Part shown: piece after piece, positions 5,838 to 26,842 of the stretch
Layout: every line of letters begins with the position of its first letter
How positions within the stretch are numbered: position 1 is the stretch's first letter
From: a virus
IMG/VR virus record: IMGVR_UViG_3300037585_002933
Span: 1-34,571 of that record
Length of the DNA: 34,571 nucleotides
Reading direction: 5' to 3' (one strand)
Program-made: the position numbers and the translations under genes
The notes under the pieces: generated by a model
Databases searched by the model: none
Told to the model about the DNA's origin: nothing
What the model saw: the letters and a program-made list of their open reading frames with translations, nothing else

Positions 5838-6194
5838 AAAGTATTAACTACAACTGCATCAGCACAAACTTTTAAAATAATACCTAGAGAATATGTTACA
5901 ACAGCTACAATGTTGATAACAGATGATTCTACTAATACAACAACAACTTACGCAAGTATTACGCCAACAGTAAGCACAAATCATTTACAAATCAATCAAG
6001 CGTTTAGTCCAGTTTTAAAAGAGGGCAGGTTTTATGATTTAGTTTTAAAAAACACAAGCAATAAAATTATCTATAAAGATAAAATATTTTGTACAGTACA
6101 AGGTGTTGATCAAACGCAAAACGAAGAATACACAGTTAATAAAGATGTTTATACTTCTGATACTAGTTACGATAACGACTTTATAATATTATGA
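5835..6194 (+). CDS. Putative head-associated protein upstream of portal, unknown
   Basis: 119 aa. The frame is open further upstream to 5754, but that extension would run through the terminator hairpin, so ATG 5835 is the better start. The protein is beta-rich and Thr/Ser-rich, with REYVTTATMLITDDST, a Gly-Arg-Phe-Tyr-Asp turn near residue 65, and a C terminus SYDNDFIIL. I recall similar proteins immediately before portal genes in flavobacterial phages, without known function. Its stop overlaps the portal start (ATGA), so it is co-translated with portal and is probably a minor head or neck component. Confidence 0.55.
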   Translation: MKVLTTTASAQTFKIIPREYVTTATMLITDDSTNTTTTYASITPTVSTNHLQINQAFSPVLKEGRFYDLVLKNTSNKIIYKDKIFCTVQGVDQTQNEEYTVNKDVYTSDTSYDNDFIIL

Positions 6195-7963
6195 AAAAAT
6201 TAGGAATAGTAAATTTAAGCAGTTACACTTCGCCTGAAATTGTAGAAGTAAGAAACAAAGATTGGGTAATGTACGGAGAGGACAATGCTTATTATCAGTA
6301 TTTAATAGACCGATATAACGGAAGTCCAACTAACAATGCAATAATTAATGGACTATCTGAAATGATCTTTGGAAAAGGATTAAACGCTACTGATGCAAAT
6401 AGAAAACCTGACGAATATGCTCAAATGGTTTCTTTATTTAAAAAAAACACAGTAAGAAAGTTTTGTTATGATCTTAAATTAATGGGTCAATGTGCTATAC
6501 AAATTATTTATTCAAAAGACAGAAAAAAAATAGCGCAAATAGAACACTTGCCTATTGAAACTATAAGAGCAGAAAAAGTAAACGAAACAACAGAAGAAGT
6601 AGAAGCATATTATTATAGTCCTGATTGGCTAAAAATAAAACCTAACGACAAACCGAAAAGAATACCTGCCTTTGGTACATCTAACCAACCGATAGAAATT
6701 TTAGTAGTGAAACCATATAGAGCAGGTTTTTATTATTACTCGCCTGTGGATTATCAGGGAGGATTACAGTACTCTGAACTAGAGGAGGAGATTGCTAACT
6801 ATCATATCAATAATATAAAAAACGGACTTGCTCCTAGTATGCTTATAAATTTCAACAACGGAATTCCAAACGAGGAAGAAAGAGAATTAATTGAAAGAAG
6901 AATTTACGATAAGTTTAGTGGATCAAGTAGTGCAGGAAAATTTATTTTAGCTTTTAATGATAACCAAGAAAGTGGAGCAACATTAGAACCAGTACAATTA
7001 TCTGACGCTCATAACCAATACCAATTTTTAAGTGATGAATCTAGTAAAAAAATATTAGTATCTCATAGGATTGTTAGTCCTATGTTATTTGGTATAAAAG
7101 ACAATACAGGATTAGGAAACAACGCAGAAGAATTAAAAACAGCATCAATACTAAATGATAATGTAGTGGTTAAACCATTTCAAGAATTATTAATAGATGC
7201 TTTTGATCAAATACTTGCAGTTAATGATATTAGTTTAAATCTGTATTTTGAAACTTTACAACCATTAGAATTTAAAGACGACCTTATAGAAGAAATAGAC
7301 GATAAAGAAGTTGTAGAAGAAGAAACAGGAGTTAAAATGTCTGCTGTTCCTGCTTTTGATGATGAAACAAAAGATATTTGGTTAAATCATTTAGGAGGTT
7401 TAGGAGAAGAAGAAGATTTAGAAGCGTGGGAATTAATGGACGTTGAAGATACCGAAGATGAACCTGAAGAATTTAACGCAGAAGAATATCTAAACAAACT
7501 AACATTATCAGCAAATCAAGACAGTAAATTAGACACAGAAAGGTGGAAAGTGCGTTATAAATATATAAAAGGAACTAAAAAAACTCCTAAAACAAAAAAG
7601 TCAAGAAAATTTTGTAAAGATTTAATTAAAAAAAATAAACTTTACAGAAAAGAAGATATTGATATAATGAGTTTTAAAGGCAAAAATAAAGAGTTTGGAC
7701 ATAAAGGTCAAAGTTATTCCATTTTTAAATTTAAAGGTGGTGTAAATTGCTACCACAGGTGGGAAAGACGTATATATAAAAAGAAATTAAAAGCAGATGG
7801 ATCAATATGGGGAGGAAACGCTTTACAAGGCACTAATTTCAAAAATGTAAATCAAGCTATAAGAGAGGGTTGGAAAAAAACAACACAACCAAAAGATGTA
7901 GCAATAGCACCGATTGATATGCCTAATCAAGGACACCATCCTAATTATAAAAAAGGTAAATAA
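6191..7963 (+). CDS. Portal protein with C-terminal extension
   Basis: 590 aa. The first 360-400 residues resemble siphovirus portal proteins that form the DNA-entry dodecamer: an N-terminal wing with NNAIINGLSEMIFGKGL, a middle with FYYYSPVDYQGGLQYSELEEEIANYH and a helix-rich segment around VSPMLFGIKDNTGLGNNAEEL. Acidic linkers (residues about 365-445) lead to a distinct basic domain at 450-590 with conserved-looking Cys and His (SRKFCKDLI, GGVNCYHRWERR, a His pair near the end). That extension is not part of a minimal portal. The gene overlaps both neighbours (ATGA and TAATG), so it is translated in one operon with the connector. Confidence 0.8.
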   Translation: MKKLGIVNLSSYTSPEIVEVRNKDWVMYGEDNAYYQYLIDRYNGSPTNNAIINGLSEMIFGKGLNATDANRKPDEYAQMVSLFKKNTVRKFCYDLKLMGQCAIQIIYSKDRKKIAQIEHLPIETIRAEKVNETTEEVEAYYYSPDWLKIKPNDKPKRIPAFGTSNQPIEILVVKPYRAGFYYYSPVDYQGGLQYSELEEEIANYHINNIKNGLAPSMLINFNNGIPNEEERELIERRIYDKFSGSSSAGKFILAFNDNQESGATLEPVQLSDAHNQYQFLSDESSKKILVSHRIVSPMLFGIKDNTGLGNNAEELKTASILNDNVVVKPFQELLIDAFDQILAVNDISLNLYFETLQPLEFKDDLIEEIDDKEVVEEETGVKMSAVPAFDDETKDIWLNHLGGLGEEEDLEAWELMDVEDTEDEPEEFNAEEYLNKLTLSANQDSKLDTERWKVRYKYIKGTKKTPKTKKSRKFCKDLIKKNKLYRKEDIDIMSFKGKNKEFGHKGQSYSIFKFKGGVNCYHRWERRIYKKKLKADGSIWGGNALQGTNFKNVNQAIREGWKKTTQPKDVAIAPIDMPNQGHHPNYKKGK

Positions 7964-14975: not shown

Positions 14976-15890
14976 ATGATAATTAACTACGACGACCATA
15001 TACAAAAGATAAAAGATGTTAGATCAGGTAAAATTAAAGAGGGATTAAAATTAGACATACCTGAAATAGACGAATTCTTAAGATTTAAAATTGCAAACTT
15101 TAATGTAATACTAGGACACGCTAACACAGGCAAAACTACTTTAATACTTTATTTTATGTTATTATATTCAGTTAAACATAAATTAAGGTGGTTAGTGTTT
15201 AGTAGTGAAAATGAACCTTATACATTAATTAAAAAGTTAATAGAATTTTTAGAGGGAAAAGTTATAACTAAAATTGAAGAAACATATTTTAAAAAACGAA
15301 GCGAATGGGTGGATCAGTATTTTAAATTTATTGATCCTAATGAAATTTATTGCTTTAAAGATATTTTAGATTTAGCTAGTGCAATAAAAAAGGGTTGGAA
15401 TTATGATGGATTATTAATTGATCCTTATAACAGCTTAATTAAAAACAAAGAGTTATCCAAAAGTTTTAACGGACACGAATACGATTATTATGCTACAAGT
15501 GAAATGAGAGTTTTTTGTAAAAAGAACCAAGTTAGTTTGTGGTTAAATACTCACGCCTCAACTGACGCATTAAGAAAAAGACATCCTGAAAGACACGATT
15601 ATTCAGGGCATCCAATACCTCCAATGGCTAGTGATGTAGAGGGAGGAGGAAAGTTCGTTAACAGAGCAGATGATTTTATAGTAATACACAGATACATTCA
15701 ACATCCTACAGAATGGATGAATAATTTAGTTCATATTCGTAAAGTAAAAGACGTAGATACAGGAGGAAGACCAACACCGATTGATGAACCAATTACTTTA
15801 AGAAGTGTAATAAATAATGTCGGATTTGAAATAAATGGAAAAAATTTATTAGATTTACCTAAAAGAGTTCAAACTGATTTACCTTTTTAA
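14976..15890 (+). CDS. RecA/DnaB-type ATPase, probable replicative helicase or loader
   Basis: 304 aa. Walker A GHANTGKTT at residues 47-55, a hydrophobic Walker B strand ending LLID with Asp149, and WLNTHAST at 189-196 with the Asn/Thr-His typical of motif 3 in RecA/DnaB-like proteins. The domain looks like a single SF4-type core without a primase domain; no primase gene is recognised elsewhere. It ends RVQTDLPF, an SSB-like tip. It starts right after a terminator and a promoter-like box, and is followed by a membrane protein and a sigma factor with no gap. It may unwind phage DNA or remodel single-stranded DNA complexes. Confidence 0.7.
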   Translation: MIINYDDHIQKIKDVRSGKIKEGLKLDIPEIDEFLRFKIANFNVILGHANTGKTTLILYFMLLYSVKHKLRWLVFSSENEPYTLIKKLIEFLEGKVITKIEETYFKKRSEWVDQYFKFIDPNEIYCFKDILDLASAIKKGWNYDGLLIDPYNSLIKNKELSKSFNGHEYDYYATSEMRVFCKKNQVSLWLNTHASTDALRKRHPERHDYSGHPIPPMASDVEGGGKFVNRADDFIVIHRYIQHPTEWMNNLVHIRKVKDVDTGGRPTPIDEPITLRSVINNVGFEINGKNLLDLPKRVQTDLPF

Positions 15891-17637: not shown

Positions 17638-17899
17638 AATAAAAAACAGTTCAAATCCTGATGCAACAGAATATTGGGTAGAAGTAAAAAATATAAACTA
17701 CATAGATTATCCAAAAACCAACGTAATGACAGACGGTAAAAAAAGCAAACAACCTTATTTTATGTTAGGTGTTAATGATTATGACGATAACGAATATCTT
17801 TTAAATTTTGATCCAGTAGAGTTTTTAAAGAGGGTTGATAGAGAAACTTTAGTAAATATTATTAAAGCCGTAAAAGACGATCTAGACGATAAAGTATGA
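17621..17899 (+). CDS. Small protein upstream of the exonuclease, unknown
   Basis: 92 aa, with beta-rich central sequence (YWVEVKNINYIDY, QPYFMLGVNDYDDNEYLLNF) and an acidic helical C terminus (VNIIKAVKDDLDDKV). It overlaps both neighbours, the exonuclease by ATGA. It might be an exonuclease cofactor; that is position-based. Confidence 0.5.
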   Translation: MTIKNKIKNSSNPDATEYWVEVKNINYIDYPKTNVMTDGKKSKQPYFMLGVNDYDDNEYLLNFDPVEFLKRVDRETLVNIIKAVKDDLDDKV

Positions 17900-18669
17900 T
17901 AAAAAGTATAACATTATTAGATGGTTCTATTTGGGATAAAAACGAACTTATAAAAAATATGGACAACGATGAGTTTTACTATAATTTATGTGGTAAAAAT
18001 ATGTTATCAAGCAGTAGTGCTAAACTCCTTTTACATTCTTATAAAAAATATTATTACGTTCAAAAGTATGGTTATAAATCTAGTCAAGCATTAATAGATG
18101 GTTGGTTGTTTCATACTTCAATATTAGAACCTGATGTATTTAGTAAACAAATTTTTGTAGATGTAGCATCAAAAAACACAAAAGCATTTAAAGATGCTAA
18201 AAATAAATACAAAGTTGTTTTTACAAAAAAAGAAAAATCAGACGCTGAAAGATTAGCTGATGCTTTTTTAAAAAATCCTGATTTAGTTAAATGGTTAAAC
18301 AAAGGAGATTGTGAAGTACCAATAGCAGGGGAGGTTATGGGTATGCCTTTTAGAGGAAAAGCAGATATAATTACAAAAAAAGGAGAAATAATTGATCTTA
18401 AAACTACAGTAAATATAGATAAATTTAGAAATTCGGCATTTAATTTTTCATACGATTTACAATGTTATGTGTATTGTAATTTGTTTAAAGTAGATTATAG
18501 TAAATTTTATTTCATAGCTTTGGACAAAGAAAATTTAGTTCCAAAATTTTGCACAGTATCAAAAGAATTTTATCAAAGTGGGGAGTATAAATGTGAAAAA
18601 GCAATTAAAGAATATAAAGAAAATGTAAACAAAGACATTAACGAATACTTACAAACAGAAATATTATGA
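17896..18669 (+). CDS. RecE/lambda-exo-type PD-(D/E)XK exonuclease
   Basis: 257 aa. The motif set of RecE-like (exonuclease VIII) enzymes is visible: DGWLFHTSILEPD with His73, FRGKADIIT with Asp157, EIIDLKTT with Asp167 and Lys169, and DLQCYVY with the Q-xxx-Y signature (Gln189, Tyr193). Such enzymes degrade one strand from duplex ends to make tails for annealing recombination. No obvious RecT or Erf annealase is next to it, though the OB-like and SSB-like genes at 14150 and 14580 could serve. It is translated by ATGA coupling on both sides. Confidence 0.75.
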   Translation: MIKSITLLDGSIWDKNELIKNMDNDEFYYNLCGKNMLSSSSAKLLLHSYKKYYYVQKYGYKSSQALIDGWLFHTSILEPDVFSKQIFVDVASKNTKAFKDAKNKYKVVFTKKEKSDAERLADAFLKNPDLVKWLNKGDCEVPIAGEVMGMPFRGKADIITKKGEIIDLKTTVNIDKFRNSAFNFSYDLQCYVYCNLFKVDYSKFYFIALDKENLVPKFCTVSKEFYQSGEYKCEKAIKEYKENVNKDINEYLQTEIL

Positions 18670-19101: not shown

Positions 19102-19611
19102 ATGGACAAACCTTTTAAAATTAAATATCCCCCTTTAATAAATGAACAGGCATTATATATAGGAAAAATGAGAGAAGCTACAAACGTTTATATGCATCAA
19201 AAAAACCCTAAATTTAAAAGAGGAAATATACCAGTTGATGCATTAGGTTGTCAATGTGAATTAATTGCTCAATATTATTGTTGGGATAAAAAACTATCTT
19301 ATGAAAGTGATCAAATGCTAGGAGGAAAACCAATAGCAAGTTATGATATTAAAGTAACAAATCCTGATGGTGAGATTTTTAAAATAGATGTAAAAGGAAT
19401 ATCAGCTGTCCAAGGGGAATTTAGAGTAAATTATAATGCCCATATAAAAGATAAAAATATTTCTCATTATATGTTTATACAACCTTTGAGTGAAAATCTA
19501 TTTAACGAAGATGCAAATATTTGGATAAAACAAAAAAAAGAAATAGATAAATGGGATTTAAAAGAATTAAAATATAGTAAAGCTTATATAAAACAAATGC
19601 TATTCTTATAA
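19102..19611 (+). CDS. Putative PD-(D/E)XK endonuclease-like protein
   Basis: 169 aa. ELIAQYY (Glu near residue 53), YDIKVTNPDGE and KIDVKGIS (Asp-x-Lys) form a plausible PD-(D/E)XK active site in the spacing used by restriction and Holliday-junction enzymes. The C-terminal part is beta-rich (HYMFIQPL, NIWIKQKKEID). It lies between the DnaA-like and ParB-like genes. It could act in recombination or degrade host DNA that lacks the phage base modification; the second idea is speculative. Confidence 0.45.
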   Translation: MDKPFKIKYPPLINEQALYIGKMREATNVYMHQKNPKFKRGNIPVDALGCQCELIAQYYCWDKKLSYESDQMLGGKPIASYDIKVTNPDGEIFKIDVKGISAVQGEFRVNYNAHIKDKNISHYMFIQPLSENLFNEDANIWIKQKKEIDKWDLKELKYSKAYIKQMLFL

Positions 19612-19614
19612 TAT

Positions 19615-20145
19615 ATGAAAATTGAAATAAACAAACTCAAACTAAATTCTAACAATCCAAGATTAATAAAAGACTTTAGATTTAAAAAACTTGTAAACTC
19701 AATTAAAGAGTTTCCACAAATGTTAGAAAAAAGACCTGTTGTGGTTGATGAAGATTATATTATACTAGGAGGTAATATGAGATACCGAGCAGCCAAAGAA
19801 TTGGGAATTAAAAAAATAGACGTTATAGTTGTAAAGGATTGGACAGAAGATCAAAAAAAAGAATTTACAATAAAAGACAATGTGGGTTTTGGAGATTGGG
19901 ACTGGGACTTATTAGCTAACGATTGGGAGAATAATAAATTAAATGAATGGGGTTTAGAAGTTTGGGAAAATAAAGAATATGATTTAGATGAATTTTTTTC
20001 CGAAAAAGAAGAGGAAGAAGAAAAAGATTTTACAATTATATTAAAGTATAACAAAGATAAGTTTAAAAAAGTTAAAGATATTTTAAATTCAAAAAAAGGA
20101 ACTAAAGAAGAAATTATTTATAATTTATTAGTTAAAGACAAATGA
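19615..20145 (+). CDS. ParB/sulfiredoxin-type domain protein
   Basis: 176 aa. The N-terminal 90 residues fit the ParB N-terminal domain found in phage DNA-modification loci: LNSNNPRLIKD, RPVVVDEDYIILGGNMRYRAAKELG with the box GGNMRYRAA (52-60), and DNVGFGDWDWDLLAND. The C-terminal part is acidic (EEEEEKD) and helical. Such domains often accompany phage DNA methyltransferases; here the neighbour is the DpdA-like enzyme, overlapping by ATGA. I infer a link to modification, perhaps recognising DNA or nucleotide substrate. The domain may bind CTP like ParB, which cannot be judged here. Confidence 0.6.
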   Translation: MKIEINKLKLNSNNPRLIKDFRFKKLVNSIKEFPQMLEKRPVVVDEDYIILGGNMRYRAAKELGIKKIDVIVVKDWTEDQKKEFTIKDNVGFGDWDWDLLANDWENNKLNEWGLEVWENKEYDLDEFFSEKEEEEEKDFTIILKYNKDKFKKVKDILNSKKGTKEEIIYNLLVKDK

Positions 20146-20894
20146 AAATTTATTTAGCAGCACCTGCAAACACTTCCGACCCTTTCGTTAGAGATGAATT
20201 TTTTGATTTTTACTCTTTACAATCTTACCATTATATTAAAAAAGCATTTAGAAATGAGGGGAAAATACATAATAAATACAAAGATTTTATGTTAGATAGT
20301 GGTGTTTTTACTTATTTAACATCTCTTAAAGAAAAAGCTAAAACACTTGACTGGGAGAAATATATTTATGATTATGGGAGTTTTGTAAAAAAATATAAAA
20401 TACAAAAGTATGTAGAGGTTGATGTTGATAAAGTTTTAGGAGAAAAAGAGGTGGAAAAATTAACTAAAAAATTAGAAAAATTGGTTGGGTGGAAAACTAT
20501 ACCAGTTTGGCATATGAACAGGAGTTATGATAGTTGGTTAAAAATTTGTAAAGATTATGATTATATATGTTTCGGAGCATTTTTAACTGATGGATTAAAA
20601 CAATCAAAATTTCCTATGATTAACAAATTTTTATTTGATGCGGCTAAATCTAAAACAAAGGTACACGGTTTAGGGTTTACTTCATCAAAATTACTTCCTT
20701 TGTATAAATTTTATTCAGTAGATAGCAGCAGTTGGTCAGCAGGAAGAAGATTTGGAACTTTATATAATTTTAATAATGGTAAACTAACCACCAAGAGTTT
20801 TAAAAATAGGAGAGTTAAGGATTCTCATAAATTAAGCAGACACGATTTTTACGAGTGGGTAAAATATAGTCAATACGCAGAAATTAATCTTTAA
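20142..20894 (+). CDS. dpdA: DpdA-like DNA 7-deazaguanine transglycosylase
   Basis: 250 aa. It matches phage DpdA, a tRNA-guanine transglycosylase relative that swaps guanine in DNA for a 7-deazaguanine base. Visible marks are LDSGVF at 51-56 (Asp52 corresponds to the DSGGF aspartate of TGT enzymes), VEVDVD at 91-96, HMNRSYDSW at 124-132, VHGLGFTS at 174-181 and YSVDSSSW at 191-198. It begins MKIYLAAP. It is followed immediately by the preQ0/preQ1 pathway genes, all coupled by overlapping starts and stops, and preceded by the ParB-like gene. The exact base inserted is not shown by the sequence. Confidence 0.75.
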   Translation: MKIYLAAPANTSDPFVRDEFFDFYSLQSYHYIKKAFRNEGKIHNKYKDFMLDSGVFTYLTSLKEKAKTLDWEKYIYDYGSFVKKYKIQKYVEVDVDKVLGEKEVEKLTKKLEKLVGWKTIPVWHMNRSYDSWLKICKDYDYICFGAFLTDGLKQSKFPMINKFLFDAAKSKTKVHGLGFTSSKLLPLYKFYSVDSSSWSAGRRFGTLYNFNNGKLTTKSFKNRRVKDSHKLSRHDFYEWVKYSQYAEINL

Positions 20895-20905
20895 AAATAA
20901 ATAAA

Positions 20906-21304
20906 ATGGAAAACGAAAATTACATACCAATACACGGTTCAATGAAAAGACCTGCAGGACCTGATATAGGTGTTAGGGAAGTAGAAAAAGGAAGACAAAA
21001 TTGGACTGGAGGTAATTTAAAAATACATATAAGCACTTTAGAATTTACTTCTGTATGCCCTACTACTGGTCAGCCAGATTTTAATAACATAACCATAATA
21101 TACAAACCAGATAAGTTTTATATAGAATCTAAAACAATTAAATTCTATTTATGGAGTTTTAGAGATTATGGTGCTCATTGTGAAACTTTATCAAAGTTGA
21201 TAGCAGAACATTTAAACAAAGCAATAAAACCAAAAAAAATAAAAGTAATAGTAAATCAATTTCCAAGAGGTGGAGTAAAAATAATTTCAAAATATAAAAT
21301 ATGA
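20906..21304 (+). CDS. queF: QueF-type 7-cyano-7-deazaguanine reductase
   Basis: 132 aa, unimodular QueF. It would reduce preQ0 to preQ1 with NADPH. Cys51 in TSVCP (thioimide nucleophile), Asp58 in GQPDF and ESK at 74-76 (start of the NADPH motif) are intact, and Glu93 aligns with the substrate-binding Glu. The NHG part of the usual motif reads DYG (87-89), and the position of the conserved His next to Glu93 reads Cys92, with His91 one residue earlier. So it is QueF-family, but whether it reduces or acts as a QueF-like amide-transferring variant is uncertain. It overlaps queC by ATGA. Confidence 0.75.
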   Translation: MENENYIPIHGSMKRPAGPDIGVREVEKGRQNWTGGNLKIHISTLEFTSVCPTTGQPDFNNITIIYKPDKFYIESKTIKFYLWSFRDYGAHCETLSKLIAEHLNKAIKPKKIKVIVNQFPRGGVKIISKYKI

Positions 21305-21966
21305 AAAAAGCAATAGTACTATTATCAGGTGGACAAGATTCAACTACCTGCCTTTATTGGGCAAAAAAAGAATTTGAACAAATTCAAGCAATAGGGTTTG
21401 ATTATGGTCAAAGTCATAAACAGGAATTAATTCAAGCAAAAAAAATAGCTGATAACATTTCTGTTAAATATAAGATATTTGACGTAAAAGGATTACTCGC
21501 TAAATCTTCTTTAATAAATCATACAGACCATACAGAAGAAAGTTATTTAGATAGTAATTTACCTGCAAGTTTTACTGCAGGAAGAAATATATTATTTTTA
21601 ACAATAGCGGCAAGTTATGGTGCTGAAAAAGGAATTACAGATTTAGTGACTGGTGTCTGTCAAACAGATTACAGTGGGTATCCTGATTGTAGAAAAACAA
21701 CTATTGACAGCTTACAAACCACTTTGTCTTTAGGGTTAGGAGCAGGAGATTATAGAATACACACTCCATTAATGTATCTTGATAAAGCACAAACTTGGAA
21801 AATGGCAAAAGAATTAAATTGTTTAGATGTTATAATTAATGATACTATGACTGATTACAACGGAGATATGACAAAAAATGAATGGGGTTTTGGAAATAAA
21901 GATAATCCTGCTACAGAGTTACGAGTTAAAGGATATTATCAAGCCAAAGAAAAAGGGTGGATATGA
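21301..21966 (+). CDS. queC: QueC-type 7-cyano-7-deazaguanine synthase lacking zinc cysteines
   Basis: 221 aa. It would make preQ0 from 7-carboxy-7-deazaguanine, ATP and ammonia. The PP-loop SGGQDSTT (9-16), FDYGQSHKQE (33-42), FTAGRN (91-96) and VCQTDYSGYPDCR (119-131) are all typical of QueC. The C-terminal region that normally carries four zinc-binding Cys reads DTMTDYNGDM...WGFG...DNPATELRVKG (181-211) with no Cys in the positions of TCYNG, GCG and CPAC. The fold there is presumably kept without zinc. The stop overlaps queD (ATGA). Confidence 0.85.
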   Translation: MKKAIVLLSGGQDSTTCLYWAKKEFEQIQAIGFDYGQSHKQELIQAKKIADNISVKYKIFDVKGLLAKSSLINHTDHTEESYLDSNLPASFTAGRNILFLTIAASYGAEKGITDLVTGVCQTDYSGYPDCRKTTIDSLQTTLSLGLGAGDYRIHTPLMYLDKAQTWKMAKELNCLDVIINDTMTDYNGDMTKNEWGFGNKDNPATELRVKGYYQAKEKGWI

Positions 21967-22364
21967 TTAAAATAAGAAAAAAATATTATTTTTACGCAGG
22001 ACACAGAAACAAAGATGCAGGAGAAAAATGTGGCAGGTTACACGGACATACTTACGATATAGTTTGTGAGTTTGAATTTAAAGAAATAAAAAATGGAGTT
22101 ACAATGTTGTTTTCAGATATAGATAATATTGCTGAACCAATAATAAAAGAATACGATCATTATTTTTTATTATATAAAGAAGATCCTTTAGTTGATGTTT
22201 TTAATTTAGCAAACGAACCTTTTATTGAATTACCTTTTGAAACTTCAGCAGAGAATATGGCAATTTGGATTTATCAAAGAATAAAAAAACATTTACCTAT
22301 AAAAAGAATTGAACTATCTGAAACTAAATCAAGCACGGTTATTTATGAAGAAGATAGCAATTAG
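21963..22364 (+). CDS. queD: QueD-type 6-carboxytetrahydropterin synthase
   Basis: 133 aa from ATG 21963; an in-frame GTG at 21957 is less likely because the ATG is coupled to the queC stop. It converts dihydroneopterin triphosphate to 6-carboxytetrahydropterin. Zinc ligands His14, His27 and His29 (in YAGHRN and GRLHGHTYD), catalytic Cys23, the Asp65-His66 pair in EYDHYF and Glu120 in ELSETKSS are all present. Its 3' end overlaps queE by 20 bases. Confidence 0.85.
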   Translation: MIKIRKKYYFYAGHRNKDAGEKCGRLHGHTYDIVCEFEFKEIKNGVTMLFSDIDNIAEPIIKEYDHYFLLYKEDPLVDVFNLANEPFIELPFETSAENMAIWIYQRIKKHLPIKRIELSETKSSTVIYEEDSN

Positions 22365-23073
22365 TGAGGTTTTTTATTCTATTCAAGGAGAGGGTAAGAC
22401 CGTTGGAATACCAAGTGTATTTGTTAGATTAGGAGGGTGTAATTTAATGTGCGGTGGTATGGGAACTCAATTTGATGGAGAACTGCATAATAACGCACGA
22501 TGGAGATGTGATACTGTTGAGGTGTGGATGAAAGCAAAAAGCAAAGAGTTTAAAGATGTTTTAAATAAAGAGTGTATTGATGCTATAAAAAACAACGCTC
22601 ATATTATAATAACAGGTGGAGAGCCAATGATGCAACAAATTCAAATAATAGAATTTATAAATTATATAAAAACCAATATAAACAAAAAAGCATATTTTGA
22701 AGTTGAAACCAATGGAACTATAATGCCAAATAATTTTTTATTAAATGAAATTAATTTATGGAATTGTAGTCCTAAACTATCTAATAGTGGTAATGATAAA
22801 TCTTTAACTTATAAACCTGATGTAATAAAAAGACTTAATAAACAAAATACTATTTTTAAATTTGTAGTAGATAGTAAACAAGATTGGCTGGAAATAAAAA
22901 AAGATTATTTAATGTTAATAGATAAAGAAAAAGTTTATTTAATGCCTGCAGGAGAAAATCAAAAACTATTAAACGATAATAAAAAAATAATAGTTGAGTT
23001 AGCTAGAAATAATTATTTAAATTTTACAACAAGATTACATATAGACGTATGGAACAAAAAAACAGGAGTATAA
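22345..23073 (+). CDS. queE: QueE-type 7-carboxy-7-deazaguanine synthase with atypical Cys motif
   Basis: 242 aa, radical SAM family. The start is ATG 22345 (MKKIAISEVFYSIQGEG, the canonical QueE opening); an upstream TTG at 22309 only adds sequence overlapping queD. GGCNLMCGG then, after an 18-residue spacer, RWRCDT gives CX3CX18C for the iron-sulfur cluster instead of CX3CX2C. IIITGGEPMMQ carries the SAM-binding GGE motif, and EVETNGT and NCSPKLS are typical QueE blocks. It makes CDG, the precursor of preQ0. The stop overlaps folE by TAATG. Confidence 0.85.
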   Translation: MKKIAISEVFYSIQGEGKTVGIPSVFVRLGGCNLMCGGMGTQFDGELHNNARWRCDTVEVWMKAKSKEFKDVLNKECIDAIKNNAHIIITGGEPMMQQIQIIEFINYIKTNINKKAYFEVETNGTIMPNNFLLNEINLWNCSPKLSNSGNDKSLTYKPDVIKRLNKQNTIFKFVVDSKQDWLEIKKDYLMLIDKEKVYLMPAGENQKLLNDNKKIIVELARNNYLNFTTRLHIDVWNKKTGV

Positions 23074-23882
23074 TGGATTGGATTGAAATAATAGAAAGAG
23101 TCAAAAAAATTAAAACAAAATATCCTAATGGTAAGTTTTGGGGAGTTCCAAGAGGTGGTCAGGTTATATCAGGACTTTTAGGAAATCCAGTTAATACAAT
23201 AGAGGAAGCAGATGTTATTGTAGATGATTTAATTGACAGCGGAACAACTTATAAAAGATATAAAAAATACAATAAACCTTTTGAAGTTTTAATAGATAAA
23301 AGAAAAGAAAAAAGAGATTGGATTATTTTTCCGTGGGAAGATTCGCAAGGAGATATACAAGACAACGTTATAAGAATGTTACAATATTTTGGAGAGGATG
23401 TTAATAGAGAGGGATTAAAAGATACACCAAAAAGATATATTAAATTTTTTGAACAGTTTTTTAATCAACCTAACTGGAAGTTTACAACATTTAATAGTGA
23501 GGGGTACGATGAAATGATTATACAAACAAATATTCCTTTTTATTCTTTATGCGAACATCATATAGCACCTTTTTTTGGCTATGGTCATATAGCATATGTT
23601 CCGAATAAAAAAATAGTAGGGTTAAGTAAATTAGCAAGAACAATAGATAAATTTTCTCATAAATTACAAAACCAAGAAAGAATAACAACACAGGTTGCAA
23701 ATTTTTTAAATAAAGAGTTAGAACCAAAAGGAGTAGCTGTATCTTTAACTGCAAAACATATGTGTATGGAAATGAGGGGGGTAAAGAAACACGACACTTG
23801 GACAACAACAAACAAATTAATAGGAGTGTTTAACGATGAACACGAAACAAGATTAGAATTTTTTAATAGTATAAAAAAATGA
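23073..23882 (+). CDS. folE: Phosphoribosyltransferase-GTP cyclohydrolase I fusion
   Basis: 269 aa from ATG 23073, coupled to the queE stop; an in-frame ATG at 23049 would add eight residues inside queE. Residues 1-90 look like a small type I phosphoribosyltransferase: FWGVPRGGQVISG (22-34) and the PRPP loop VIVDDLIDSGTT (48-59). Residues about 96-267 are GTP cyclohydrolase I, which starts the pathway from GTP: SLCEHHIAPFFG with Cys160 and His163, VGLSKLAR, and Cys231 in AKHMCME as third zinc ligand, then the RGV block. The fusion is the notable feature. It overlaps the terminase small subunit (ATGA). Confidence 0.85.
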   Translation: MDWIEIIERVKKIKTKYPNGKFWGVPRGGQVISGLLGNPVNTIEEADVIVDDLIDSGTTYKRYKKYNKPFEVLIDKRKEKRDWIIFPWEDSQGDIQDNVIRMLQYFGEDVNREGLKDTPKRYIKFFEQFFNQPNWKFTTFNSEGYDEMIIQTNIPFYSLCEHHIAPFFGYGHIAYVPNKKIVGLSKLARTIDKFSHKLQNQERITTQVANFLNKELEPKGVAVSLTAKHMCMEMRGVKKHDTWTTTNKLIGVFNDEHETRLEFFNSIKK

Positions 23883-24235
23883 ACAAAACAGAACACAATA
23901 AAAAAGCATTATTAGAAGCACTAGAAAAATCATTAGGAGTAGTAACAACAGCTTGTAAGCAAGTGGGAATAGGTAGAACTACTTATTATGAATATTATAA
24001 AGACATAGAATTTAAAAAGCAAGTAGATTCAATTCAAGATATTGCTTTAGATTTTGCCGAAAGCCAACTCCATCAACAAATACAGGGAGGTAATACTGCA
24101 GCAACAATATTCTTATTAAAAACAAAAGGTAAAAAAAGGGGTTATGTAGAACGCCAAGAAATAACAGGAGCAGAGGGATTACCAACAAATGTAACAGTAG
24201 AGATTATTAGAACAAATGAAAATAAAGACGAATGA
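23879..24235 (+). CDS. terS: Terminase small subunit
   Basis: 118 aa. An N-terminal helix-turn-helix (LEKSLGVVTTACKQVGIGRTTYYEYYK, residues about 15-42 read in two parts) is followed by a helical oligomerisation region (QDIALDFAESQLHQQIQGG) and a basic segment KTKGKKRGYVER. This is the layout of phage TerS DNA-recognition subunits, and TerL is next, overlapping by 20 bases. It would mark the phage DNA packaging site. It directly follows the DNA-modification operon without a gap. Confidence 0.75.
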   Translation: MNKTEHNKKALLEALEKSLGVVTTACKQVGIGRTTYYEYYKDIEFKKQVDSIQDIALDFAESQLHQQIQGGNTAATIFLLKTKGKKRGYVERQEITGAEGLPTNVTVEIIRTNENKDE

Positions 24236-25370
24236 TGTTTACGACCATTTAATATTAAGTGATAAAAAAATAGTTGTTGAACAGGGGGGTACTCGTTCAG
24301 GAAAAACTTATAATATACTTCTTTGGATTATTTTTAGTTATTGCACAAATCAACGTAATAAAATAGTTACAATTTGCCGTAAAACTTTTCCTAGTTTAAG
24401 GGCATCAGTAATGAGAGATTTTTTAACTATACTAAAAGAGAATAAAATGTATAGTGAAGAAGCACATAATAAATCAGCAAGCGAATATGTTTTATATGGA
24501 AATCTAATTGAGTTTATTAGTTTAGATCAACCACAAAAAGTAAGAGGTAGAAAAAGAGATTTACTTTTTATCAACGAAGCTAACGAATTATTCTGGGAGG
24601 ATTGGCAACAGCTTTTATTTAGAACAAACGGTAGAATTATTTTAGATTATAATCCATCAGATGAATACCATTGGATATATGATAAAGTTATTTCTAGAGA
24701 AGATGCAGACTTTTATCAAACTAATTATTTAAACAATCCTTTTTTAGATAAGAATATAATTCAAGAAATTGAAAGACTTAAAGATACTGACGAACAATAT
24801 TGGCAAATTTATGGATTAGGTATAAAAGGAATTACAAAAGCTACAATATTTAGATATCTAGAAATAAATAAAATACCTGAACAAGCAAAGTTTTTAAGTT
24901 ATGGAATGGATTTTGGATATACTAACGACCCTACTGCTTTGATTGGTGTTTGGGTTGATGAGTTTAATTTATATATTAAGGAATATCTTTATAGAACTAT
25001 GATGACCACAAACGATATAAATAAGTTTCTGCTTTCTTTAAATATCCAAAGAGAAATGATATTTGCTGATTCAGCCGAAGTAAGATTGATTGATGAATTA
25101 AGAAGAATGGGTTGGAATATAAGACCAAGTATAAAAGGGAGGGATTCTGTTAATGCAGGAATTGATCTTTTGAAAAGATATAAATTACATATTACAAAAG
25201 ATAGTGATAATGCTATACAGGAATTTAGAAACTACAAATGGAAAGAAGATAAAAATGGTAAAATGTTAAACATTCCTATTGATGATCATAATCATTTAAT
25301 TGACAGTTTACGTTACGGAACTTATAGTATATTATCTAAACCAAACTTTGGTAGGTACGCAATTAGATAG
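24216..25370 (+). CDS. terL: Terminase large subunit
   Basis: 384 aa. ATPase domain: Walker A GGTRSGKT (24-31), Walker B LLFINEAN (116-123, with the catalytic Glu in NEAN) and the coupling block RIILDYNPSDEYHWIY. Nuclease domain, RNase H-like: Asp232 in YGMDFGYTNDP, Asp285 in FADSAE and Asp363 in HLIDSLRYG. The protein powers and cuts DNA during packaging. Length is slightly short for the family (about 400-450). It resembles PBSX/Terminase_3-type enzymes. Headful packaging with circularly permuted ends would fit the assembly overlap, but this is inferred. Confidence 0.9.
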   Translation: MKIKTNDVYDHLILSDKKIVVEQGGTRSGKTYNILLWIIFSYCTNQRNKIVTICRKTFPSLRASVMRDFLTILKENKMYSEEAHNKSASEYVLYGNLIEFISLDQPQKVRGRKRDLLFINEANELFWEDWQQLLFRTNGRIILDYNPSDEYHWIYDKVISREDADFYQTNYLNNPFLDKNIIQEIERLKDTDEQYWQIYGLGIKGITKATIFRYLEINKIPEQAKFLSYGMDFGYTNDPTALIGVWVDEFNLYIKEYLYRTMMTTNDINKFLLSLNIQREMIFADSAEVRLIDELRRMGWNIRPSIKGRDSVNAGIDLLKRYKLHITKDSDNAIQEFRNYKWKEDKNGKMLNIPIDDHNHLIDSLRYGTYSILSKPNFGRYAIR

Positions 25371-26810: not shown

Positions 26811-26842
26811 CTTTTTTATTTGGTTTATTTTAGTTAGATTTG

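Follow-up and report, generated by a model that had tools for sequence, protein, structure and literature searches.

An uncultivated tailed phage with a predicted preQ1 operon and an exchangeable, co-inherited DpdA–QueF module

The operon and its closest described counterparts

Streptococcus phage Dp-1 (NC_015274) carries, in the consecutive genes queF-queC-queD-queE-folE-queT-dpdA, the enzymes leading from GTP to preQ1 together with DpdA, and measurement of its DNA revealed preQ1 (as dPreQ1) and no archaeosine (dG+) (PMC6884629). The same enzyme set is encoded at positions 20142–23882 of IMG/VR virus record IMGVR_UViG_3300037585_002933, the subject of this report. The whole stretch analysed, here called the window, comprises 34,571 bases and belongs to a tailed phage known from environmental sequencing alone. 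Its six operon genes, all on the + strand, stand in the order DpdA, QueF, QueC, QueD, QueE and, in last place, a FolE with an N-terminal extension, flanked by a ParB-like gene on the left and by terminase genes on the right. This enzyme set fits group 1 of PMC6884629 (DpdA, FolE, QueD, QueE, QueC and QueF or QueF-L).

Dp-1 differs from the window in possessing a QueT transporter, a FolE without the phosphoribosyltransferase (PRT)-like extension, a QueC of the zinc type and a QueF with the FHED motif, as well as in its gene order and in the absence of the ParB and small terminase (TerS) borders. Sphingomonas phage vB_StuS_MMDA13 (PMC7472734) shares with the window DpdA, a PRT-extended FolE, QueD, a QueF-L candidate, a QueC without zinc ligands and QueE; however, its small QueF-like protein is divergent, the gene order is another one, and the cluster lies beside a DNA polymerase and not beside the terminase. 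The Queuovirinae (Vibrio phage VpKK5 and Pseudomonas phage PaMx25) likewise have DpdA, QueE, QueD and the PRT extension of FolE, with either QueC or Gat-QueC, whereas a separate QueF is not annotated in them and the genomic position is different.

The initial annotation had read the six genes, in this order, as a pathway for 7-deazaguanine modification of phage DNA. The open reading frames and family profiles bear this out: each gene is recognised in searches against the Que and DpdA families with scores far from chance, and the enzymes for the route from GTP through preQ0 to preQ1 are all present, along with a DpdA of the tRNA-guanine transglycosylase fold. The operon itself represents a known strategy, the disguise of DNA bases against bacterial defences, and the comparison with its surroundings matters more; the points that deserve specialist attention are the exchange of modules among related phages and the pairing of DpdA with QueF.

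Co-inheritance of DpdA and QueF

Relatives of the operon were collected by tblastn-confirmed searches with DpdA, FolE, QueC and TerL (large terminase) as queries. The order ParB, DpdA, module, QueD, QueE, FolE, TerS, TerL recurs in contigs of many metagenomes, with variation in the stretch from ParB to QueD. Of 101 distinct loci, 63 have QueC only in this stretch, 13 a QueD-like paralogue, 11 the paralogue plus a glycosyltransferase, 8 QueF, 3 a short QueC, 2 Gat-QueC and 1 an ArcS-type DUF5591 domain (we take DUF5591 to belong to ArcS). Across the 101 loci the module type changes 12 times on the DpdA tree compared with 27–29 times on the FolE, QueD and QueE trees, and in a comparison of 59 loci it changes 9 times on the DpdA tree, 18 times on the ParB tree and 21 times on the TerL tree. 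The loci in these trees were drawn almost wholly from the FolE and QueC scans and not from the DpdA scan.

The pairing was tested on 71 loci by contrasting the 8 that contain QueF with those that have QueC only. The QueF label changes once on the DpdA tree, where all 8 of the 8 QueF-linked DpdAs fall into one clade with a support of 100, compared with 7–8 changes on the QueC, QueD, QueE, FolE and ParB trees, about as many as with shuffled labels. The hypothesis that the QueF loci form one clade is rejected for QueC (p = 0.0026), QueD (p = 0.0004) and FolE (p = 8e-6). Scanning with an alignment of QueF proteins recovered 11 loci, every one on a contig already in the set, and thus no further QueF locus of the window type. 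Physical linkage as the sole cause of the pairing was rejected, because QueC, the other direct neighbour of QueF, does not travel with it. DpdA and QueF are thus passed on together as a matched pair, and this speaks for preQ1 as the inserted base; on the simplest reading, the DpdA clade of the window takes preQ1 that QueF makes as a free base. The initial annotation had held that the final base cannot be read from the sequence; the co-inheritance of QueF with one DpdA clade relaxes this caution by pointing to preQ1, although the base is still a prediction.

We consider it probable that the phage possesses a self-contained pathway in which DpdA inserts QueF-made preQ1 in place of guanine, that DpdA and QueF constitute a matched and exchangeable module, and that the DNA is thereby protected. 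FolE, QueD, QueE and QueC would convert GTP to preQ0, QueF would reduce free preQ0 to preQ1 with NADPH, and DpdA would swap guanines of the replicated phage DNA for preQ1 with release of guanine, so that some guanines of the phage DNA are probably replaced. The dPreQ1-bearing DNA would withstand host nucleases that read guanine. The DpdA–QueF pair would serve as the end-module of a shared precursor pathway, located in a ParB–TerS island that relatives appear to use for different DNA-modification chemistries.

A reversed order, in which DpdA inserts preQ0 and QueF subsequently reduces the base on the DNA, would also end in dPreQ1 and appears unlikely to us. The order of reduction and insertion was left open in PMC6884629, the archaeal QueF-L acts on preQ0 bound to tRNA (PMC6884629), and the co-inheritance could also mean that DpdA and QueF act together on the same DNA. 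However, if insertion came first, any preQ0-inserting DpdA would serve, and QueF should then accompany a range of DpdAs just as it accompanies a range of QueCs, and yet a single DpdA clade is seen. The strict pairing makes this question, posed in 2019, experimentally approachable.

The QueF gene (20906–21304, + strand, 132 amino acids) encodes a predicted unimodular preQ0 nitrile reductase that matches TIGR03139 with 104.6 bits (cut-off 86.9). The protein aligns with the B. subtilis-type QueF structures 4f8b, 5udg and 4fgc and retains C51, D58, the stretch ESKTIKFY and E93; compared with 4f8b, the catalytic Cys (C51) and Asp (D58) are in place. The NADPH site of QueF carries the motif E(S/L)K(S/A)xK(L/Y)(Y/F/W), of which the window stretch is a slightly relaxed version with T for S/A and F for L/Y. 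At the position of the His of FHED, part of the His-Glu pair that binds preQ0 in QueF, the window has C92, with a His at 91 and the Glu kept as E93, an arrangement invariant in 8 aligned proteins that differs from both B. subtilis QueF and Dp-1 QueF. This substitution would suit an amidinotransferase of the QueF-L type, with archaeosine (dG+) as the DNA base, as would the finding that HHpred placed most phage QueFs nearer to QueF-L, for which dG+ was considered before dPreQ1 was measured (PMC6884629). We regard dG+ as very unlikely, as ESKTIKFY is retained and aligns with ESKSLKLY of the B. subtilis-type enzyme, the score against the QueF-II model exceeds its cut-off, and in the two cases with such a protein that were tested, Dp-1 and HVTV-1, mainly dPreQ1 was present (PMC6884629).

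DpdA (20142–20894, + strand, 250 amino acids) is the predicted DNA guanine transglycosylase. It belongs to phrog_887 (E = 2.3e-42) and has tblastn matches to 102 phage records, while Pfam yielded no match and a search of its profile against PDB sequences yielded nothing credible. A relationship to known structures is visible by fold alone: the AlphaFold model has a mean predicted local distance difference test score (pLDDT) of 90.4, and its top structural matches are tRNA-guanine transglycosylases, the best being 7a3v (E = 4.5e-5). Within the family D52-S-G, H175, D194-S and W198 are invariant and D94 nearly so, and D94 and D194 would form the catalytic Asp pair. H175 aligns with HGFG of VpKK5 and MMDA13 and with HAFG of Dp-1, and its alignment suggests that it corresponds to His196, the conserved His of DpdA that is absent from DpdA2 (PMC6884629). 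Relatives of the protein occur on viral contigs in operons of like composition, and the predicted activity is base exchange in DNA. That the genes instead raise queuosine in host tRNA during infection, as proposed for phages with Que genes and no DpdA (PMC6884629), is very unlikely and the least probable of these readings, because nearly all islands that could be followed the whole way from ParB to FolE contain a DpdA, the window protein groups by score with the phage DpdA families rather than with bacterial transglycosylases, and the slot is otherwise filled by genes for DNA modification (Tet_JBP, amino acid:DNA transferase or ADDT, and TET-associated glycosyltransferase or TAGT).

Several observations, in addition to the Cys at the FHED position and the HHpred assignments, weigh against the proposed preQ1 pathway. 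The pairing rests on only 8 distinct QueF loci, with some long branches and quickly built trees, and one relative (L070) carries another, divergent QueF that is accompanied by a DpdA type of its own, and was outside the pairing test. No DNA match to the window was found in 50,697 phage records, and there is no close isolate among them. QueC (21301–21966, + strand, 221 amino acids), the predicted preQ0 synthase, matches TIGR00364 with 198.9 bits (cut-off 150.3) and 3bl5, the B. subtilis QueC, over residues 2–214, with SGGQDS kept and the Cys ligands replaced. All four cysteines of the canonical zinc motif, C(x)8CxxCxxC (PMC13329287), are absent from it and from 101 of the 101 full-length QueCs in our set; they are also missing from the QueCs of MMDA13 and a Stenotrophomonas phage, and are retained in two Gat-QueCs that occupy the same slot in relatives. 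The protein resembles a QueC by every other mark, and it is the label of canonical QueC that is weakened. The claim of the initial annotation that the modified base could be made without host queuosine genes is therefore supported by a full gene set and qualified by this QueC, and it continues to be a prediction.

Exchange between ParB and TerS

The left border of the island is formed by a ParB-like protein (ParB_N; 19615–20145, + strand; PF02195, 1.4e-8; phrog_620, 3e-27), whose position is kept in most relatives, and the right border by TerS (23879–24235, + strand; phrog_309, 5.9e-6). TerL (PBSX type; 24216–25370, + strand; TIGR01547, 131.5 bits, cut-off 105.05) served as the backbone marker. 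Comparison of the window with a close relative (L005) shows 94% identity as far as position 20158 and 92% identity from position 21567 onward. The intervening segment, which holds DpdA, QueF and the 5' part of QueC, is replaced in L005, where DpdA and QueC are 36% and 58% identical to their counterparts and QueF is absent; a gene at 19102–19611 is replaced as well. A second pair (L070 and L072) is 94.7% identical over 6 kb including TerL, with QueC-QueF-DpdA in one member and a QueD-like gene and a different DpdA in the other, and a third pair (L030 and L081) is 94.6% identical downstream and carries different modules. On a TerL tree with 116 rows, at least 26 changes of module type are needed, compared with a possible minimum of 7 and a mean of 57.6 after shuffling. 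Phages with flanks more than 90% identical differ in precisely those genes that determine the final DNA base, a pattern that would be expected under continued pressure from host nucleases to change the disguise.

In relatives with a TerL 83–85% identical to that of the window, the entire Que operon gives way to other genes for DNA modification within the ParB and TerS borders. The islands of L163 (3887–6024) and L164 (5517–7654) contain a TET/JBP oxygenase (PF12851, 4e-29), an ADDT (PF18724) and a P-loop protein, which suggests thymine hypermodification at the same site. A TAGT (PF20691) is located near TerS in L161 (6134–6991) and L171 (74–955), and likewise in the island of L162. The TAGT of L161 takes the place of the complete operon, with ParB and TerS as its immediate neighbours: the alignment of L161 with the window ends at 19958 and resumes at 23874, five bases ahead of TerS.

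In other relatives (L006, 4440–6798; L016, L021, L024, L036 and L047) DpdA is accompanied by a QueD-like protein of 110–115 amino acids (phrog_17812) and a glycosyltransferase (PF00534), without QueC, and the end base of this module is possibly sugar-bearing. The label of 7-carboxy-7-deazaguanine (CDG) decarboxylase (DpdL), which might apply to the QueD-like paralogue, is not adopted here. A tentative generalisation, which we hold with considerable reserve, is that the ParB–TerS interval is a site at which whole DNA-base chemistries are exchanged, that base-specific DpdAs are traded together with their finishing enzymes, and that one of the modules inserts a sugar-bearing 7-deazaguanine other than one derived from preQ0. 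No description of such a base was found in the literature searched. Differences in the last step between related genera (QueC with QueF-L compared with Gat-QueC) were described for MMDA13 and Nipunavirus (PMC7472734); a limited literature search turned up no account of exchange among near-identical phages or of exchange with genes of the TET type. The variants of the slot amount to a list of DpdA and tailoring-enzyme pairs for DNA with chosen 7-deazaguanines.

Two loci (L034, 1970–2395; L045, 4591–5019) have a very short QueC-like protein of ~141 amino acids alone beside DpdA, with the C-terminal third missing. The gene before ParB is also variable. In the window (19102–19611) it has a weak restriction-endonuclease-like match, in several other relatives (L011, 1495–1914; L163, 2897–3328) it resembles the L005 type (2392–2787), and L005 has an HNH_3 gene one position further up. 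A nuclease next to the island could promote the exchange or control it.

The FolE extension and the remaining genes

The last gene of the operon encodes a fusion. Its residues 104–277 (23358–23882, + strand) are the catalytic domain of FolE, GTP cyclohydrolase I (PF01227, 3.9e-63; TIGR00063, 198.6 bits, cut-off 181.6; best Foldseek match 1wm9, E = 7e-21). About residues 1–103 (23049–23357, + strand) form the PRT-like domain, for which the single-sequence Pfam match is weak (E = 0.044), whereas a profile built from 19 relatives finds structures of xanthine-guanine PRT (XPRT/XGPRT) in the PDB with E = 1.8e-8. The call relies on this sequence profile, as the best 50 Foldseek matches of the fusion are to FolE alone. 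Across 33 fusions R35 G36 G37, D59 D60, D63 S64 G65, T67, W91 and E97 are invariant, and with them the phosphate loop (RGG) and the phosphoribosyl pyrophosphate (PRPP) loop (DDxxDSGxT). Gpt (1a95, 6kp5) has the same RGG, a DDxxDSG loop and a base-side Trp-...-Pro-Trp motif, and differs in about 28 additional residues between RGG and DD and in standing apart from FolE.

It is possible, if doubtful, that the domain is a working guanine PRT that converts the guanine released by DpdA to GMP, refills the GTP pool of FolE and pulls the exchange forward, an attractive idea that concerns this domain only and is compatible with the preQ1 pathway proposed above. The profile match spans the base-contacting Lys region (K84, ~94% conserved), W91..FPWE resembles TWIEQPWD of XGPRT, both loops are strictly conserved, and DpdA occurs in the same cluster in 4 of the 4 cultured records examined (VpKK5, PaMx25, MMDA13 and Stenotrophomonas phage 2008005c). 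However, the spacing from RGG to DD is 19–20 residues in 122 of 132 fusions compared with about 48 in XGPRT (6kp5), and some DpdA islands carry a FolE without the domain. The flexible loop between these motifs closes the active site in working PRTs. The domain is about 28 residues shorter than XGPRT and this loop is gone, and for that reason it may bind instead of catalysing. Our first choice is a regulatory domain, most likely one that has a 6-oxopurine nucleotide or PRPP as its ligand and that tunes FolE or couples it to the guanine supply.

The extension is present in cultured VpKK5, MMDA13 and Stenotrophomonas phage 2008005c, with DpdA adjoining or nearly so in each, and the PaMx25 record annotates the PRT stretch, as a hypothetical protein, and FolE as two genes. 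It is accessory, since it is absent from the FolE of Dp-1 and from some DpdA islands of our set. A scan of GTDB genomes yielded no full-length fusion, its three matches covering the FolE part only, and hence no link to a host. The term phosphoribosyl is absent from the MMDA13 paper (PMC7472734), and a limited literature search found no account joining phosphoribosyltransferase, FolE, DpdA and phage.

QueD, a 6-carboxytetrahydropterin synthase with a GTG start (21957–22364, + strand; PF01242, 1.8e-24; phrog_2389, 6.5e-23), contains EKCGRLHGHTY and so keeps the Cys-x3-HGH motif. QueE (22345–23073, + strand; phrog_2076, 2.4e-57) keeps the radical-SAM motif as Cx3Cx18C, with 18 residues separating the second and third cluster cysteines. 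This form is the most frequent among the QueEs of the set, with 77 proteins, a few others having 5 or 6 residues there. Both score below the NCBIfam equivalog cut-offs. The QueE start is probably the ATG at 22345 and not the listed TTG at 22309.

The overlap of nearly all stops and starts, as first described for the operon, is confirmed and extends through TerL. The junctions, in nucleotides, are −4 (ParB/DpdA), +11 (DpdA/QueF), −4 (QueF/QueC), −10 (QueC/QueD), −20 (QueD/QueE), −25 (QueE/FolE), −4 (FolE/TerS) and −20 (TerS/TerL), the 11 nucleotides after DpdA being the sole gap. The 4-nucleotide overlaps at its two ends probably couple translation of the operon to that of its neighbours. Promoter-like sites are no commoner in the window than in shuffled sequence, and no Rfam family, preQ1 riboswitches included, was found in it. 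PADLOC reported no defence system, only a QueC match and, in the ParB-like protein, a match of the methyltransferase type. A single terminator-like site was found, at 26842, downstream of TerL. Genes for a portal protein (6191–7963), a DnaB-like or primase-helicase protein (14976–15890) and an exonuclease VIII-like protein (17896–18669) are those of an ordinary tailed phage. The closest named relatives of TerL are mostly phages of Bacteroides and Phocaeicola, at 34–36% identity, which weakly hints at a host in the Bacteroidota.

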